NCBI RefSeq assembly: GCF_000337515.1
Contig: NZ_AOIQ01000021.1
Coordinates: 179,834-243,833, forward strand
Direction: 5' to 3'
DNA length: 64,000 nucleotides
Source: Halovivax asiaticus JCM 14624
GTDB taxonomy: Archaea; Halobacteriota; Halobacteria; Halobacteriales; Natrialbaceae
Every line of letters begins with the position of its first letter. The first letter of the stretch is position 1. A program made the translations under genes and the position numbers. Under the pieces are notes generated by a model. That model made no database searches, was not told the DNA's origin, and saw nothing but the letters and a program-made list of their open reading frames with translations. Below, in pieces: positions 950 to 63,335 of this stretch.

Positions 950-3739
950 ATGACCCGCGAGGGCGACCGAAGTGAGCGCTCGGACGAAGCGAGCGGTGAA
1001 ACCGCGAGCCGCGAGGCCGAAGCGCACACGCCCGAACTCGCCGGGGAGTACGACGCCGAGGCCATCGAATCCCACTGGCAGCGCCGGTGGGTCGAGACCG
1101 ACACTTACGCCTACGAGGGCGATCCCGAACAGGATCCCAACACCGTCTACTCGATCGACACGCCGCCGCCGACGGTCTCGGGAAGTCTGCACATGGGCCA
1201 CCTCTACGGGCAGACACTGCAGGACTTCGCGGCCCGTTTCCAGCGGATGGTCGACGGCGACGTCCTCTTCCCGTTCGGCTACGACGACAACGGCATCGCG
1301 AGCGAGCGCCTCACGGAGGACGAACTCGATATCCGCCACCAGGACTACGAGCGCCAGGAATTCCAGGATCTCTGTCGTGACGTCTGTCAGACGTACGAGG
1401 CCGAGTTCACCGAGAAGATGCAGGGGCTCGGCACCTCGATCGACTGGAATCGTACCTACAAGACGATCGAGCCGCGCGTCCAGCGCATCTCCCAGCTCTC
1501 CTTTCTCGACCTCTACGAGAAGGGACGCGAGTACCGCAAGAAGGCGCCCGCGATCTGGTGTCCCGAGTGCGAGACGGCGATCTCTCAGGTCGAAGTCGAG
1601 GACGACGAGCGTGGCTCGCACTTCAACGACATCGCGTTCGGTATCGCCTCGGAGGGAACCAACCGCGAGGAGTTCGTCATCTCCACGACGCGTCCGGAAC
1701 TCATCCCGGCCTGCGTCGCGGTCTTCGTCCATCCCGAAGACGACGACAACCAGGACCTGATCGGCGAGACAGCTCGCGTCCCCATCTTCGGCCACGAGGT
1801 GCCGATCATCGAAGACGAGCGCGTCGACATGGAGAAGGGCAGCGGGGTCGTCATGTGCTGTACCTTCGGCGACCAGAACGACATCGAGTGGTACCAGGCC
1901 CACGACCTCCCGCTGCGCGTCGCCATCGACGAGACCGCGACGATGACCGACCTCGCCGGGGAGTACGAGGGCCTCTCGACCGAGGAAGCGCGCAAGGCCA
2001 TCGTCGAGGATCTGGACGAGGAGGGCGCACTCCGCGACCGGTGGGAGATCACGCACGCCGTCGGCGTCCACGAACGCTGTGAGACGCCCGTCGAGTACCG
2101 CGTCTCCAAGCAGTGGTACGTCGAGATCCTGGACCACAAGGAGGAGTACCTGGATGCCGGCCGGGAGATGGACTGGTACCCCGAGAAGATGTTCACCCGG
2201 TACAAGCACTGGATCGAGGGGCTGGAATGGGACTGGCTCATCTCCCGCCAGCGCGATTCGGGGATCCCGTTCCCGGTCTGGTACTGTGAAGAGTGCGACC
2301 ACCCAATTATGGCCGACAAGGCGGACCTGCCGGTCGACCCGCTGAGCGACGAGCCACCGGTCGAGGCCTGTCCGGAGTGCGGCCACGCGGAATTCGAGGC
2401 CGAGGAGGACGTCTTCGATACGTGGGCAACGTCCTCGCTGACGCCGCTGATCAACGCCGGCTGGGACTGGGACGGCGAGGGCGCAAGCGAAGCGAGCGAC
2501 CTCGGAGCGGAGAGCGGGGAGCGTCAGCGACCCGCGAACGGCGGAGACGGCGGGTTCACCATGGAGCACCCGGAACTCTATCCGTTCGATCTCCGCCCGC
2601 AGGGCCACGACATCATCTCCTTCTGGCTGTTCCACACGGTCATCAAGTGCTACGAGCACACCGGCGAGGTGCCGTTCGACGCGACGTTGATCAACGGTCA
2701 CGTTCTGGACGAGAACCGCGAGAAGATGTCCAAGTCGCGGGGCAACGTCGTCGCCCCCGACGAAGTGATCGCGGAGTACCCCGTCGACGCGATCCGCTTC
2801 TGGGCGGCCAGCGCCGCGGTCGGCGACGACTTCCCGTATCAGGAGCAAGATCTTCGGGCCGGTGAGAAGCTGTTGCGAAAGCTCTGGAACGCCTCCAAGC
2901 TGGTCGACAGCCTCGCCCCGGCCGATCCGGCCGAACCCGACGAGCTCGCGCCGATCGACCGCTGGCTGCTGGCCGAGCTCGACGACGCCATCGCGGATCT
3001 GACGGCCCACTTCGAAGCTCACGAGTACGCGAAGGCACGCGACCGGCTTCGGACGTTCTTCTGGAACACCTTCTGCGACGACTACCTTGAGATCGCGAAG
3101 GAACGCGAGGGTGATCCGTCGACTGCCTACGCGCTGCGGACGGCCCATCGCACCTTCCTCGAACTGTGGGCCCCGTTCCTCCCGCACGTCACGGAGGAAC
3201 TCTGGCAGGCGGTGTACGCTGAGAGCGAGACACAGGACGCGGGCGATGACGCTCTCGAGTCTGCGAGCATCCACGTTCGCGATTGGCCCGCTCCGGAGGG
3301 CTACGAGGCCGATCTCGATGCCGGTGAGACCACGATGGACGTCATCTCGGCGCTCCGGCGGTACAAGAGCGAGAACCAGCTCCCGCTGAACAGCGAACTC
3401 GACGCCGTCACCGTCTACGGTGCGATCGACGGATTCGAGGACGTCGTCCGAACCGTGATGCACGTCGAGGACCTCACGGTGAGCGACGACGACCCCGACG
3501 TGACGACCGAACTCTCCGATATCAGTCTCGACTACTCGACACTCGGACCCCGATACGGTGAAAAAGTGGGCGAGATCGACGACGCCATCGACGACGAGGC
3601 GTTCGAACTCGACGGGGACACACTGGTCGTCGCCGGCGAAGCACTCGAACCGGACCTGTTCGAGGTCTCCCACGAACGGACTTACTCGGGAGCCGGCGAG
3701 ATGATCGAGACCGAGTCGGCGATCGTCGTCGTCGAGTGA
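950..3739 (+). CDS. valS: Valyl-tRNA synthetase
   Basis: Class I aminoacyl-tRNA synthetase that charges tRNA-Val. The HIGH-type motif HMGH is at about residues 81-84 within TPPPTVSGSLHMGH, and KMSKS is at about residue 592. The editing (CP1) domain contains paired-Cys zinc knuckles (CPEC at about 205, CEEC and CPEC near 445-485). ATG 950 is preferred because GGTGA precedes it; an in-frame TTG at 902 would add 16 residues. Two low-complexity charged insertions stand out: residues 5-25 and about 510-538. Both are encoded by AGCGA/GCGAGC-rich DNA that resembles intergenic repeats elsewhere in the window. Length 929 aa, slightly longer than usual because of these inserts. Confidence 0.95.
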   Translation: MTREGDRSERSDEASGETASREAEAHTPELAGEYDAEAIESHWQRRWVETDTYAYEGDPEQDPNTVYSIDTPPPTVSGSLHMGHLYGQTLQDFAARFQRMVDGDVLFPFGYDDNGIASERLTEDELDIRHQDYERQEFQDLCRDVCQTYEAEFTEKMQGLGTSIDWNRTYKTIEPRVQRISQLSFLDLYEKGREYRKKAPAIWCPECETAISQVEVEDDERGSHFNDIAFGIASEGTNREEFVISTTRPELIPACVAVFVHPEDDDNQDLIGETARVPIFGHEVPIIEDERVDMEKGSGVVMCCTFGDQNDIEWYQAHDLPLRVAIDETATMTDLAGEYEGLSTEEARKAIVEDLDEEGALRDRWEITHAVGVHERCETPVEYRVSKQWYVEILDHKEEYLDAGREMDWYPEKMFTRYKHWIEGLEWDWLISRQRDSGIPFPVWYCEECDHPIMADKADLPVDPLSDEPPVEACPECGHAEFEAEEDVFDTWATSSLTPLINAGWDWDGEGASEASDLGAESGERQRPANGGDGGFTMEHPELYPFDLRPQGHDIISFWLFHTVIKCYEHTGEVPFDATLINGHVLDENREKMSKSRGNVVAPDEVIAEYPVDAIRFWAASAAVGDDFPYQEQDLRAGEKLLRKLWNASKLVDSLAPADPAEPDELAPIDRWLLAELDDAIADLTAHFEAHEYAKARDRLRTFFWNTFCDDYLEIAKEREGDPSTAYALRTAHRTFLELWAPFLPHVTEELWQAVYAESETQDAGDDALESASIHVRDWPAPEGYEADLDAGETTMDVISALRRYKSENQLPLNSELDAVTVYGAIDGFEDVVRTVMHVEDLTVSDDDPDVTTELSDISLDYSTLGPRYGEKVGEIDDAIDDEAFELDGDTLVVAGEALEPDLFEVSHERTYSGAGEMIETESAIVVVE
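2486..2501 (+). repeat. Short dispersed repeat inside valS (AGCGAAGCGAGCGACC)
   Basis: This 16-base string occurs exactly again at 16759-16774, in the non-coding spacer after tRNA-Leu. Within valS it lies in a stretch encoding a low-complexity loop rich in Glu, Ser, Ala and Arg. It looks like a short palindromic-type repeat that has entered a tolerated surface loop of the enzyme. Confidence 0.6.
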
Positions 3740-17460: not shown

Positions 17461-17669
17461 GTGCCTCTCCTGATAGTGTTTGAGGCTGGAGGGTCTCCTG
17501 AGACGGGCAGACCTCTTCCGTGCCTGTGCGGAACAGCCAATGGTCGTCTTCCTAAATGGTTGGCTGCGGGAACCGATATGGAAGTGTGGGATGAACAACC
17601 TTTCTTGAATGCCTATCCCTCAGTGGGCTGGGCGATAGGTCTTTGAGTACCACGCTCGTACCACGAGGT

Positions 17670-17942
17670 ATGAGCACGGACGCGGACGACAGCAACGGGG
17701 AAATGGTGAAACTCAACGTCAAGGTCCCGAAACAGCTCTTAGAGGAGCTAGACGAGCTCTCTGCGGAATTGCACTACTCGAACCGGTCGGAGTTCATCAG
17801 GGAGGTTCTGCGAGATACCACGGAACCGATCCTTACTCCAGGCGCACAGGAGGGAATTTCGCAGGGGTACGCGGATATTGCGGCTGGTCGAACGACCAGC
17901 CACGAGGAGATGAAGGAACGGTTCGGGATCGAGGACGAGTGA
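17670..17942 (+). CDS. Ribbon-helix-helix (CopG-like) antitoxin
   Basis: 90 residues. MVKLNVKVPKQLLEELDELS gives the beta strand and first helix of an RHH fold, SNRSEFIREVLR the second helix. The acidic C-terminal half (SHEEMKERFGIEDE) would bind the toxin. ATG 17670 follows GAGGT at good spacing. The RelE-like gene starts 10 bases after its stop, so the two form a toxin-antitoxin operon. Confidence 0.85.
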   Translation: MSTDADDSNGEMVKLNVKVPKQLLEELDELSAELHYSNRSEFIREVLRDTTEPILTPGAQEGISQGYADIAAGRTTSHEEMKERFGIEDE

Positions 17943-17952
17943 GGGCTGATCT

Positions 17953-18252
17953 GTGGCTCACAATCTCGAATACGCCGAGACGATTCAGGAGACGCTGGAA
18001 CAACTCGAAACAGCGGATGCACGCCGCATCATCACGAAACTGGATTCGATTCTCGAGTTTCCCGAGCACTTCCTCGACCGCCTGAAGAACCATCCAGGGT
18101 ACAAGCTCCGTGTCGGTGACTTCCGCGTCCTGATCGACTGGGACAAAGACAATGGGGTCCTCTACGCCATCGATGTGTTCGAGCGCAAGCGCGAGTACCG
18201 AGAACTCGGGAAGTATCGTGAGGTGTGGGGGTCGTGGCGCGATACGGAGTAG
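17953..18252 (+). CDS. RelE/ParE-family toxin
   Basis: 99 residues starting at GTG 17953. The sequence TIQETLEQLETADARRIITKLDSILEFPEHFLDRLKNHPGYKLRVGDFRVLIDWDKDNGVLYAIDVFERKREY has the helix pair and the YKLRVGDFRVLID strand set of RelE-type ribosome-dependent mRNA interferases. The typical late Arg and Tyr (ERKREYREL) are present. It pairs with the RHH protein just upstream. Confidence 0.85.
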   Translation: MAHNLEYAETIQETLEQLETADARRIITKLDSILEFPEHFLDRLKNHPGYKLRVGDFRVLIDWDKDNGVLYAIDVFERKREYRELGKYREVWGSWRDTE

Positions 18253-18629: not shown

Positions 18630-18713
18630 GAACGGAAACCGCGCTCCGTCACTGACGCGGGGACATGCAGGTGAAATGTCCCGGGTGGACCTAGCACCCG
18701 AGACGCGGTTTCC
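18630..18713 (+). ncRNA. Structured RNA, copy A (84 nt, three-stem junction)
   Basis: Predicted fold: closing stem GGAAACCGCG (18634-18643) with CGCGGTTTCC (18704-18713); hairpin GGGACAT (18660-18666) with ATGTCCC (18676-18682); hairpin GGGTG (18683-18687) with CACCC (18695-18699), then a conserved GAGA. Copy B has the same length and fold. Its closing stem differs by two compensatory pair changes (A-U to G-C and G-C to A-U), which is direct evidence for selection on RNA structure. It could be a stand-alone RNA or the 5' leader of the two downstream frames. I recognise no known family. Confidence 0.72.
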
Positions 18714-18738
18714 AAACCCATGAGCGGATTTGCAAACC

Positions 18739-18873
18739 ATGCTTAGAGAGATACTACCGAGTCAAAAAGGAATCGCCCGCCTTTCGGATAGCCAGCGCCA
18801 GCTTCTCGCACCGTTCGGTTTAGAATCCAAAACCCAGCCGGTTCTGCTCGCCAGTTCGTCGGAGGTGCCCTGA
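18739..18873 (+). CDS. 44-residue conserved peptide of locus A
   Basis: Starts ATG 18739, 26 bases after the structured RNA, and ends in TGA that overlaps the ATG of the next gene by one base, so translation is likely coupled. It aligns without gaps to the 47-residue peptide of locus B over residues 1-31, with identities at M1, R3, P7, Q9, K10, A13, S18, Q19, F26, S30 and K31. No membrane segment or cysteine. Function unknown. Some similarity could come from DNA-level homology, but both frames stay open and sit in the same place. Confidence 0.5.
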   Translation: MLREILPSQKGIARLSDSQRQLLAPFGLESKTQPVLLASSSEVP

Positions 18874-19139
18874 TGGGACGTTACGAATACGACGAGCAGC
18901 GATCGGGCCCCGCGTGCGAGCGGTGCAACGTCGAACTCACGGCGGATCACTGGGTTCGACTTGAAGCGCTCCACCAGGGGACGCGCTCGGATCGATACGA
19001 GGACGGTGTCCGGCTGGTCTGCGTCGATTGCGTGGCAGCCCTCGGACTCCTCGAATTCGCCGGTCACGATGAGCCGAATCCGGTGGAGCCGCCGGACGCT
19101 AACCGAGTCCCATCGGATCCCGCGCAGGGGAACGAGTAA
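18873..19139 (+). CDS. Two-CxxC small protein, locus A
   Basis: 88 residues beginning MGRYEYDEQRSGPACERCNVEL. Two pairs of Cys (CERC at 15-18 and CVDC near 50) should bind one zinc. The C-terminal 20 residues are Pro/Asp-rich and probably disordered. Its paralogue at 61768-61998 shares MGRY-x-x-DE, C-x-RC, W-x-x-L-x-A-x-H, RY-x-D and CVDC-x-AALG-x-LEF. Both copies follow the structured RNA and a short peptide frame. Molecular role unknown. Confidence 0.78.
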   Translation: MGRYEYDEQRSGPACERCNVELTADHWVRLEALHQGTRSDRYEDGVRLVCVDCVAALGLLEFAGHDEPNPVEPPDANRVPSDPAQGNE

Positions 19140-61480: not shown

Positions 61481-61489
61481 AATTATATT
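61481..61489 (+). promoter_or_regulatory. TATA box of structured RNA locus B
   Basis: AATTATATT starts 29 bases before GAACGG at 61510, exactly the distance seen at locus A. Flanking bases are otherwise unrelated to locus A. Confidence 0.7.
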
Positions 61490-61509: not shown

Positions 61510-61593
61510 GAACGGAAGCCACGCTCCATTCAGTCGCGGGGGCATGCGCGTAGAAATGTCCCGGGTGTTCAAGGCACCCGAGACGTGGCTTCC
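61510..61593 (+). ncRNA. Structured RNA, copy B (84 nt, three-stem junction)
   Basis: Closing stem GGAAGCCACG (61514-61523) with CGTGGCTTCC (61584-61593); hairpin GGGGCAT (61539-61545) with ATGTCCC (61556-61562, one G-U pair); hairpin GGGTG (61563-61567) with CACCC (61575-61579), followed by GAGA. Length is the same as copy A, and two pairs in the closing stem covary between copies. CACCCGAGACG and AAATGTCCCGGGTG are identical in both, hinting at a binding or tertiary-contact core. Confidence 0.72.
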
Positions 61594-61622
61594 GAATTCC
61601 CCTGACAGGGTATCCTTCCACC

Positions 61623-61766
61623 ATGAGACGGAATTCACCACCGAGACAAAAAGCTCTCGCACACCAGTGGTACAGTCAGCCGAAGCATTACCTCGAATTC
61701 GTCTGGGATTCGAAAGCCGGAGTCGACGATCTGGTTCTGCGACTCGGGAATCTGAAGGTGAACTGA
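61623..61766 (+). CDS. 47-residue conserved peptide of locus B
   Basis: ATG 61623 follows the structured RNA by 29 bases; the TGA is one base before ATG 61768 of the two-CxxC gene. The peptide begins MRRNSPPRQKALAHQWYSQ and ends LRLGNLKVN. It shares 11 identical residues with peptide A over 31 gap-free positions. It has aromatic and basic residues (W16, Y17, Y23, W28) and no Cys. Function unknown. Confidence 0.5.
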   Translation: MRRNSPPRQKALAHQWYSQPKHYLEFVWDSKAGVDDLVLRLGNLKVN

Positions 61767-61767
61767 G

Positions 61768-61998
61768 ATGGGGCGCTACGACTTCGACGAGCCGCGGCCG
61801 GACGACCCGTGCCCACGCTGTGGGGCAGATCTAGAACAAACCTACTGGGCGATCCTCAGGGCGGTCCACGACGGACCGTTATCCGAGCGGTATCGGGATT
61901 CGGAGAAACGGATGTGCGTGGATTGCCTTGCAGCACTCGGGAGGCTGGAGTTCGATACGGGGCGGGTGGCTGGAGGGGGTGGACAGCGGTCAGCGTGA
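61768..61998 (+). CDS. Two-CxxC small protein, locus B
   Basis: 76 residues starting MGRYDFDEPRPDDPCPRCGADL; CPRC (15-18) and CVDC (50-53) should form one zinc site. The helix between them (TYWAILRAVHDG) carries W, A and H conserved in copy A. The C-terminal tail is Gly-rich and short. Same position relative to RNA and peptide as copy A. Confidence 0.8.
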   Translation: MGRYDFDEPRPDDPCPRCGADLEQTYWAILRAVHDGPLSERYRDSEKRMCVDCLAALGRLEFDTGRVAGGGGQRSA

Positions 61999-62832: not shown

Positions 62833-63255
62833 CTCACGACTGTGCCGGAGCGGTATTTTCACGAGGTGGAACCGGCTGCTCGTGACCCTCTCAGTTTGGG
62901 CTCGATCGGCACGATCGCGTTCGAGTGCGACATCTCCGTGACAGCGTCGAGCGACGCACTCGTCGCGTCGCTCACGGCTTCGCCGTTCGCTTTTTCGTGG
63001 CACAAAGCGCCGTGCGACGCTCCTCGCACGTTGTCGCTCGAAAAGTGGGTTGGGGCAGCGTTGAACAACGCCAAGACGTTCCGGCTCGCTCACTACGTTT
63101 GTTCACGGCTCCCGTCGGTCGCCGTTCGCTATCCGAGGCGGTCACTTCGTTCCCGCCTCGCGTTCACTCCCGGGCTGCGACTTGTCTCGTTCAACTCTTT
63201 TCACCCACGTTTCCGACGCGCAGACTCGTCACTCCATTCCTCGTTGGTGCGTCGG
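62833..63255. repeat. Palindrome-rich spacer with tRNA-end duplication
   Basis: No gene is seen in about 420 bases. It holds many short inverted repeats (TCGAGCGACGCACTCGTCGCGTCGCTC, GGCTTCGCCG, GAGGCGGTCACTTCGTTCCCGCCTC) like those at 11721-11982 and 16808-17023. The tRNA-Val end copy lies within it at 63041-63066. Confidence 0.5.
63041..63066 (-). repeat. Second copy of the tRNA-Val 3' end (att-like)
   Basis: Twenty-six bases match 63256-63281 with one difference. Read in tRNA orientation they run from GTTCAAC through the T arm and acceptor CCCCAACCCA and on to a short T run (CTTTT). The copy is 215 bases downstream of the tRNA's own 3' end. As with tRNA-Leu, no integrase lies nearby. Confidence 0.68.
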
Positions 63256-63260
63256 AAAAG

Positions 63261-63335
63261 TGGGTTGGGGCAGAGTTGAACTGCCGATCTCCTCCATGTC
63301 AAGGAGGTGTCATAACCAGACTAGACTACCAACCC
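63261..63335 (-). tRNA. tRNA-Val, anticodon GAC
   Basis: 75-nt cloverleaf on the minus strand: acceptor GGGTTGG/CCAACCC with discriminator A, D arm GTC...GAC, anticodon stem CCTCC/GGAGG with loop TTGACAT (anticodon GAC reading GUC), T stem GGCAG/CTGCC with loop TTCAACT. CCA is not encoded; a CTTTT run follows. Confidence 0.94.

Follow-up and report, generated by a model that had tools for sequence, protein, structure and literature searches.

What does a short structured RNA do when it stands twice in one stretch of an archaeal chromosome, each time in front of a pair of small reading frames? The question is raised by two copies, A and B, in the window analysed here, by which we mean the whole stretch of 64,000 nt from Halovivax asiaticus JCM 14624. 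Copy A extends from position 18634 to 18713 of the window and copy B from 61514 to 61593. The parts of the two copies and the reading frames behind them are as follows.

61483..61488, + strand: TATA box TTATAT of the sense promoter of copy B; it starts 31 nt before the first P1 base.
61514..61523, + strand: P1 5' strand of copy B, GGAAGCCACG, the presumed 5' end of the transcript (covariation, folding).
61539..61562, + strand: P2 hairpin of copy B, GGGGCAT ... ATGTCCC; 6/7 pairs are doubly compensated in the family.
61563..61579, + strand: P3 hairpin of copy B, GGGTG-TTCAAGG-CACCC, with a hypervariable 7-nt loop (covariation, loop comparisons).
61584..61593, + strand: P1 3' strand of copy B, CGTGGCTTCC; GAG at 61580-61582 extends the helix as P1b.
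61594..61622, + strand: spacer of copy B, with hairpin P4, CCCTGACAGGG, and pre-AUG CCACC; only GUGG/CCAC can pair with the P1 3' strand.
61623..61766, + strand: ORF1 of copy B, 47 aa, MRRNSPPRQKALAHQW... (ORF translation).
61642..61659, no strand assigned: inverted repeat P5, CGAGA CAAAAAGC TCTCG, centred ~28 nt after the A of AUG; the opposite strand carries a T-rich box here.
61768..61998, + strand: ORF2 of copy B, a small zinc-knuckle protein of 76 aa, CPRC...CVDC (ORF translation, motif).
18634..18643, + strand: P1 5' strand of copy A, GGAAACCGCG (sequence).
18660..18682, + strand: P2 hairpin of copy A (folding).
18683..18699, + strand: P3 hairpin of copy A, loop GACCTAG, the exact inverse of the loop CTAGGTC of the likely orthologue L081.
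18704..18713, + strand: P1 3' strand of copy A, CGCGGTTTCC (sequence).
18734..18738, + strand: pre-AUG AAACC of copy A, with the AUG at 18739; it complements GGUUU of its own P1 3' strand.
18739..18873, + strand: ORF1 of copy A, 44 aa, MLREILPSQKGIAR... (ORF translation).
18873..19139, + strand: ORF2 of copy A, a zinc-knuckle protein of 88 aa, CERC...CVDC, overlapping the ORF1 stop.

An earlier sequence-only reading held that compensatory changes between the two copies prove a conserved stem. Both sequences bear out the changes themselves: pair 5 of P1 is A-U in copy A and G-C in copy B, pair 8 is G-C in copy A and A-U in copy B, and the remaining eight pairs are the same. The second hairpin, GGGACAU/AUGUCCC in copy A and GGGGCAU/AUGUCCC in copy B, keeps its pairing through one change from A-U to G-U, as had been described. 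On folding, both 84-mers reached ~-44 kcal/mol (z = -4.45 and -4.71), and 0/200 shuffles were as stable. The conserved stem with its compensatory changes is thus supported, and it is strengthened by 99 distinct relatives; it is from these relatives, not from two copies alone, that the proof comes. The segments AAATGTCCCGGGTG and CACCCGAGACG, previously taken as an unchanged core, are exact in both copies and vary across the wider family. Their letters are helix strands that co-vary: the P2 pair GGGAC/GUCCC becomes GGGGC/GCCCC and others, and the P3 pair GGGUG/CACCC becomes AGGUG/CACCU or GCGUG/CACGC. A match to Rfam had been named beforehand as the refuter; none was found at the gathering threshold in the window, and Rfam 15 gave no relevant match up to E = 5 for eight genomic copies. 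The more informative feature, a pairing between P1 and the start-codon region, falls outside the interval first described. Two further observations were made in the window. Just upstream of copy A (17643-18252), the translations, read by eye, show a ribbon-helix-helix and RelE-like pair that is probably a type II toxin-antitoxin system. Two 27-nt repeats, GAAAAGTGGGTTGGGGCAG[C/A]GTTGAAC, lie 215 nt apart at 63040-63066 and 63255-63281 and are apparently non-coding.

The exact core pattern occurred nine times in the Halovivax asiaticus JCM 14624 genome. A covariance model, R1, was built on 27 copies, and it gave 28 matches in this genome at E <= 0.01. Across the Natrialbaceae, R1 matched in 78/125 genomes and 24/29 genera, with up to 32 copies per genome (E <= 0.01, among at most 36 scored candidates per genome). 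The exact pattern together with its P1 flanks was found on named contigs of Natrinema, Natrialba, Natribaculum, Natronobiforma, Halopiger, Natronoglomus and Natronorubrum, and also in Haloparvum sedimenti. Haloarchaeal families beyond the Natrialbaceae have few and divergent copies. Exact-pattern matches in unrelated bacteria were set aside as chance, because the flanking stems are missing there. In one contig (L075; G024 contig 1, 1570952-1574220), three leader copies stand in tandem at a spacing of ~1.6 kb. The RNA was not found described in the literature searched, which was chiefly open-access, and Rfam 15 has no matching family; this looks like a previously unrecognised family of leader RNAs.

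Covariation showed a fold in which P1 closes two hairpins, P2 and P3. In an alignment of 99 distinct sequences (A4), 21/25 pairs had double compensatory changes, which 0/500 shuffles reached; the sequences are related by descent, and such shuffle counts are not exact probabilities. A4 was fitted to the covariance model and is hence biased towards the structure, and its values should be read with this in mind: double compensation in 205 cells, where shuffles gave 39 +/- 5, a covariation score of 0.317 against 0.112 +/- 0.006 (slid controls ~0.05 or less), and 95.5% pairing cells against 84.9 +/- 0.3. A 27-sequence alignment that is independent of model fitting gave the same direction with a smaller effect. 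In the Natrialbaceae, the P3 stem sequence is nearly invariant and all its cells are paired. A pseudoknot flanking P2 (CGC/GCG around the P2 5' strand) was also considered; single examples co-vary (GCC/GGC, ACC/GGU, UCGCG/CGCGA), the overall signal was weak (2.85 against 2.69 +/- 0.06, 5/1000), and the pseudoknot is not claimed. Four loci (L014, L015, L041 and L073) carry two extra hairpins (~55 nt) at the same insertion place in the P2 loop. Exactly inverted P3 loops were seen in the pairs L057/L058, L008/L081 and L041/L081, and a 6-7 nt loop is exactly or nearly inverted (one mismatch) also in L055/L097, L054/L091 and L002/L079. The copies of each pair are alike in other respects, as though the loop had turned round many times in evolution.

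The best TATA-like hexamer starts at -34 to -28 from P1 in ~135/178 elements, and from this spacing of ~30 nt transcripts probably begin at P1; a sigma-70 promoter scan is inapplicable to archaea. P1 is followed by P4, a small hairpin, and then by the start codon of ORF1, which is often 35-50 aa long. The end of ORF1 typically abuts or overlaps the beginning of ORF2, which encodes a small zinc-knuckle protein. A zinc-knuckle ORF lay downstream of 105/152 elements, against 9/302 (3%) and 4/252 (2%) in controls. ORF1 is very probably translated, because pN is below pS in 10/10 pairs (pooled pN/pS 0.54) and because it is fused in frame with a zinc ribbon in four loci (L004, L053, L064 and L076). 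In other haloarchaeal families, what follows the leader is often not a zinc knuckle but a SWIM-like zinc-finger protein (E = 0.018 for Pfam SWIM, short of the curated cut-off); tblastn of one SWIM product against the phage collection gave no matches. Short palindromes, of which CACTACGTAGTAC is one, surround the TATA region of several promoters in these families (L157-L185), which suggests a common transcription factor. The genes behind the leader encode zinc ribbons of two kinds, SWIM-like proteins and, in a virus, one non-zinc product, and no Pfam or NCBIfam family covers the ORF products. Small one-domain zinc-finger proteins of similar size with C(P)XCG-type motifs have been described in Haloferax volcanii (PMC6562870, PMC11241148); no report of this leader was found in their abstracts.

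Between the 5-8 nt before the start codon and the P1 3' strand there is complementarity as well as covariation. In the Natrialbaceae this is mostly GAAGCC-AUG opposite GGCUUC, and in another family GAAGACC-AUG opposite GGUCUUC; single loci have GAACCC/GGGUUC (L171), GAGACAG/CUGUCUC (L169) and GAAAGACC/GGUCUUU (L172). The score of this helix was 6.64, compared with 5.46 +/- 0.14 when shuffled among loci (0/2000), and 7.21 compared with 5.43 +/- 0.39 outside the Natrialbaceae (0/5000). Among loci with either type, and leaving out pre-AUG types that match neither, P1 3' GGUUU goes with pre-AUG AACC in 5/5 and GGCUU with AGCC in 74/76 (Fisher P = 8e-7). Copy A belongs to the GGUUU/AACC type, and most other copies have AAGCC opposite GGCUU. 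At two loci, L041 and L046, the pre-AUG bases follow the P1 3' strand while the P1 5' strand is unchanged, which argues for pairing and not for a mere repeat of the P1 5' strand. When the first 10 nt were blocked, 158/168 leaders paired the start region with the P1 3' strand in the predicted fold, against 7-10% of shuffled controls. Copy B is one of the ten exceptions and forms only a 4-bp version; in part of the source genus, pre-AUG GUCACC or GUCGCC pairs weakly. The predictions favoured the open state, with P1 formed, over the sequestered state by ~8 kcal/mol, with energies that hold for standard conditions and not for molar intracellular KCl. Since P1 is favoured to this extent, a switch would require some trigger; otherwise the leader could stay open constitutively.

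From the pairing of the start region and the position of the leader, we believe that the element probably acts in cis, as a 5' leader RNA that governs the initiation of translation through an alternative start-codon helix. A mutually exclusive helix at the start codon, as in riboswitches, is indicated by covariation and predicted folding. The transcript would start at P1, as the TATA spacing suggests. Covariation shows that the P1 3' strand can pair either with its own 5' strand or with the pre-AUG bases. With P1 formed, the start codon would be open, and ORF1 could be translated together with ORF2, which is coupled to it and usually encodes a small zinc-binding protein. With the P1 5' strand occupied or removed, the freed 3' strand would zip with the pre-AUG bases around P4, and the start codon would be hidden. 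As in start-codon-sequestering bacterial riboswitches and leaders, one strand takes part in two exclusive helices, one of which hides the start region; the leaders here differ in being archaeal, in having no evident Shine-Dalgarno involvement and in having no Rfam match.

The most economical candidate for the trigger of this proposed translational switch is an antisense RNA against the leader, of the kind that has been mapped for the T1 leader of Halobacterium phage phiH. In this specific form of the switch, which we regard as a tentative possibility, a promoter on the opposite strand just inside ORF1 would give an RNA that complements the whole leader; the two RNAs would pair through the P3 loop, and the pairing or the resulting cleavage would silence the gene. 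An inverted repeat is centred 28 nt after the AUG in 105/157 distinct loci, and an opposite-strand TATA-like hexamer is in register for a transcription start at -1 of the AUG. At codon 10 of ORF1, AAA was used 128 times and AAG 5 times, whereas the remaining ORF1 codons use both about equally. The repeat reads equally well as an RNA hairpin, however, with variable arms, and in the SWIM-gene class no TATA box stands out clearly on the opposite strand. As to the P3 loop, it is hypervariable and enriched in a U-turn-like motif (61/115 against 36 +/- 5), and its inversion recurs among related copies. Identical or inverted loops were rarer within genomes (4/1490) than between genera (61/7027; P = 0.007), and identical loops alone gave P = 0.03 by label permutation; loops one mismatch apart, however, showed no depletion within genomes. 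The inversion may also be only mutational, because the P3 flanks form an inverted repeat. The patterns of the P3 loop and the opposite strand fit a private antisense recognition. We regard the switch as likely and the antisense trigger as a lead.

The phiH T1 leader with its antisense RNA T(ant), which has a PhiCh1 homologue, was described by Stolt and Zillig in 1993, as cited in PMC6210493. The record annotation places the mapped start of T(ant) at position -1 relative to the AUG, and that of T1 at the base of a stem; the TATA spacing of the leaders here would fit such a start. Like these leaders, T1 has a ~150-nt leader and an inverted repeat with an A-rich centre 28.5 nt after the AUG, carries a pre-AUG GAGC that complements a leader strand, and is followed by a CxxC protein gene. 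Unlike them, it is not matched by R1 (at E <= 5, neither L226 nor L227 gave a match), and its predicted fold is not the same three-way junction. The antisense RNA was mapped in phiH only; the leaders here have a correctly placed opposite-strand TATA-like box. Type I toxin-antitoxin mRNAs (such as hok/mok/sok) resemble the leaders here in that the 5' end is structured, a short upstream ORF overlaps the next gene, paralogues are many and an antisense RNA is possible, but the products here, read by eye, are Cys-rich zinc knuckles and small zinc ribbons and not hydrophobic toxins.

Copies were also found in viruses. On an IMG/VR contig (L125), one copy is clear and stands in front of a gene with relatives among halovirus proteins; a further match on this contig is weak (E = 0.05). 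R1 matched HJTV-4 (E = 0.0012) and BJ1 (E = 0.035) weakly, both upstream of a gene cluster. In BJ1 and Humcor1 both alternative folds are kept with different letters, and likewise in HJTV-4. In Halorubrum virus BJ1 (L229, 3506-3600), the annotated valine start of BJ1_gp07 at 3547 sits inside the structured leader, and the true start looks like the in-frame ATG at 3598 right after it, GACAGCATG. The widest reading, which we offer as speculation and think rather doubtful as a whole, is a large undescribed archaeal family shared with haloviruses. Each copy would make an antisense RNA of its own. A private P3 loop would serve for its recognition and prevent cross-talk among up to ~30 paralogues per genome, and the leader would be flipped between the open and the start-hiding fold; phiH T(ant) would be the only relative seen experimentally.

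Other triggers or functions were weighed as well. Sensing of a metabolite or ion, with zinc as the obvious guess from the products, is unlikely: a compact folded domain with a start-hiding alternative helix is riboswitch architecture, and most products are zinc-binding by motif, but the conserved letters lie mostly in helices and not in an unpaired ligand core, Rfam gave no riboswitch match, and one viral copy precedes a non-zinc gene. It also seems improbable that the zinc-finger product or a host protein shifts the balance by binding P2/P3. The near invariance of the P3 stem in the Natrialbaceae would fit such a protein-binding leader, but products of several unrelated types are encoded behind this one leader, and simple autoregulation is therefore unlikely. 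A free-standing trans-acting small RNA with incidental ORFs would account for the own promoter and the compact fold but not for the fixed place before a translated ORF, the pre-AUG covariation and the in-frame fusions; it is disfavoured and we give it very little credence. A DNA-level operator, recombination site or mobile repeat, as the near-perfect DNA inverted repeat of the P3 arms and flanks and the many copies might suggest, is rejected on the grounds of spacers of 6 or 7 nt about equally often and once 3, which are unsuitable for a dimer site, and of compensatory changes in all helices, and likely orthologous copies share similar downstream neighbours.

Regulatory leaders that can form an alternative start-codon helix are familiar from bacteria. 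To our knowledge, few such leaders have been described in archaea, and many haloarchaeal mRNAs are leaderless. The leader RNA described here is abundant and clearly covarying in the culturable genera Natrinema, Natrialba and Natronorubrum, and its predictions for reporter mutants are direct. It flags large sets of operons for small zinc-binding proteins that lie outside Pfam and NCBIfam. With it, the phiH antisense observation of 1993 gains possible chromosomal counterparts.
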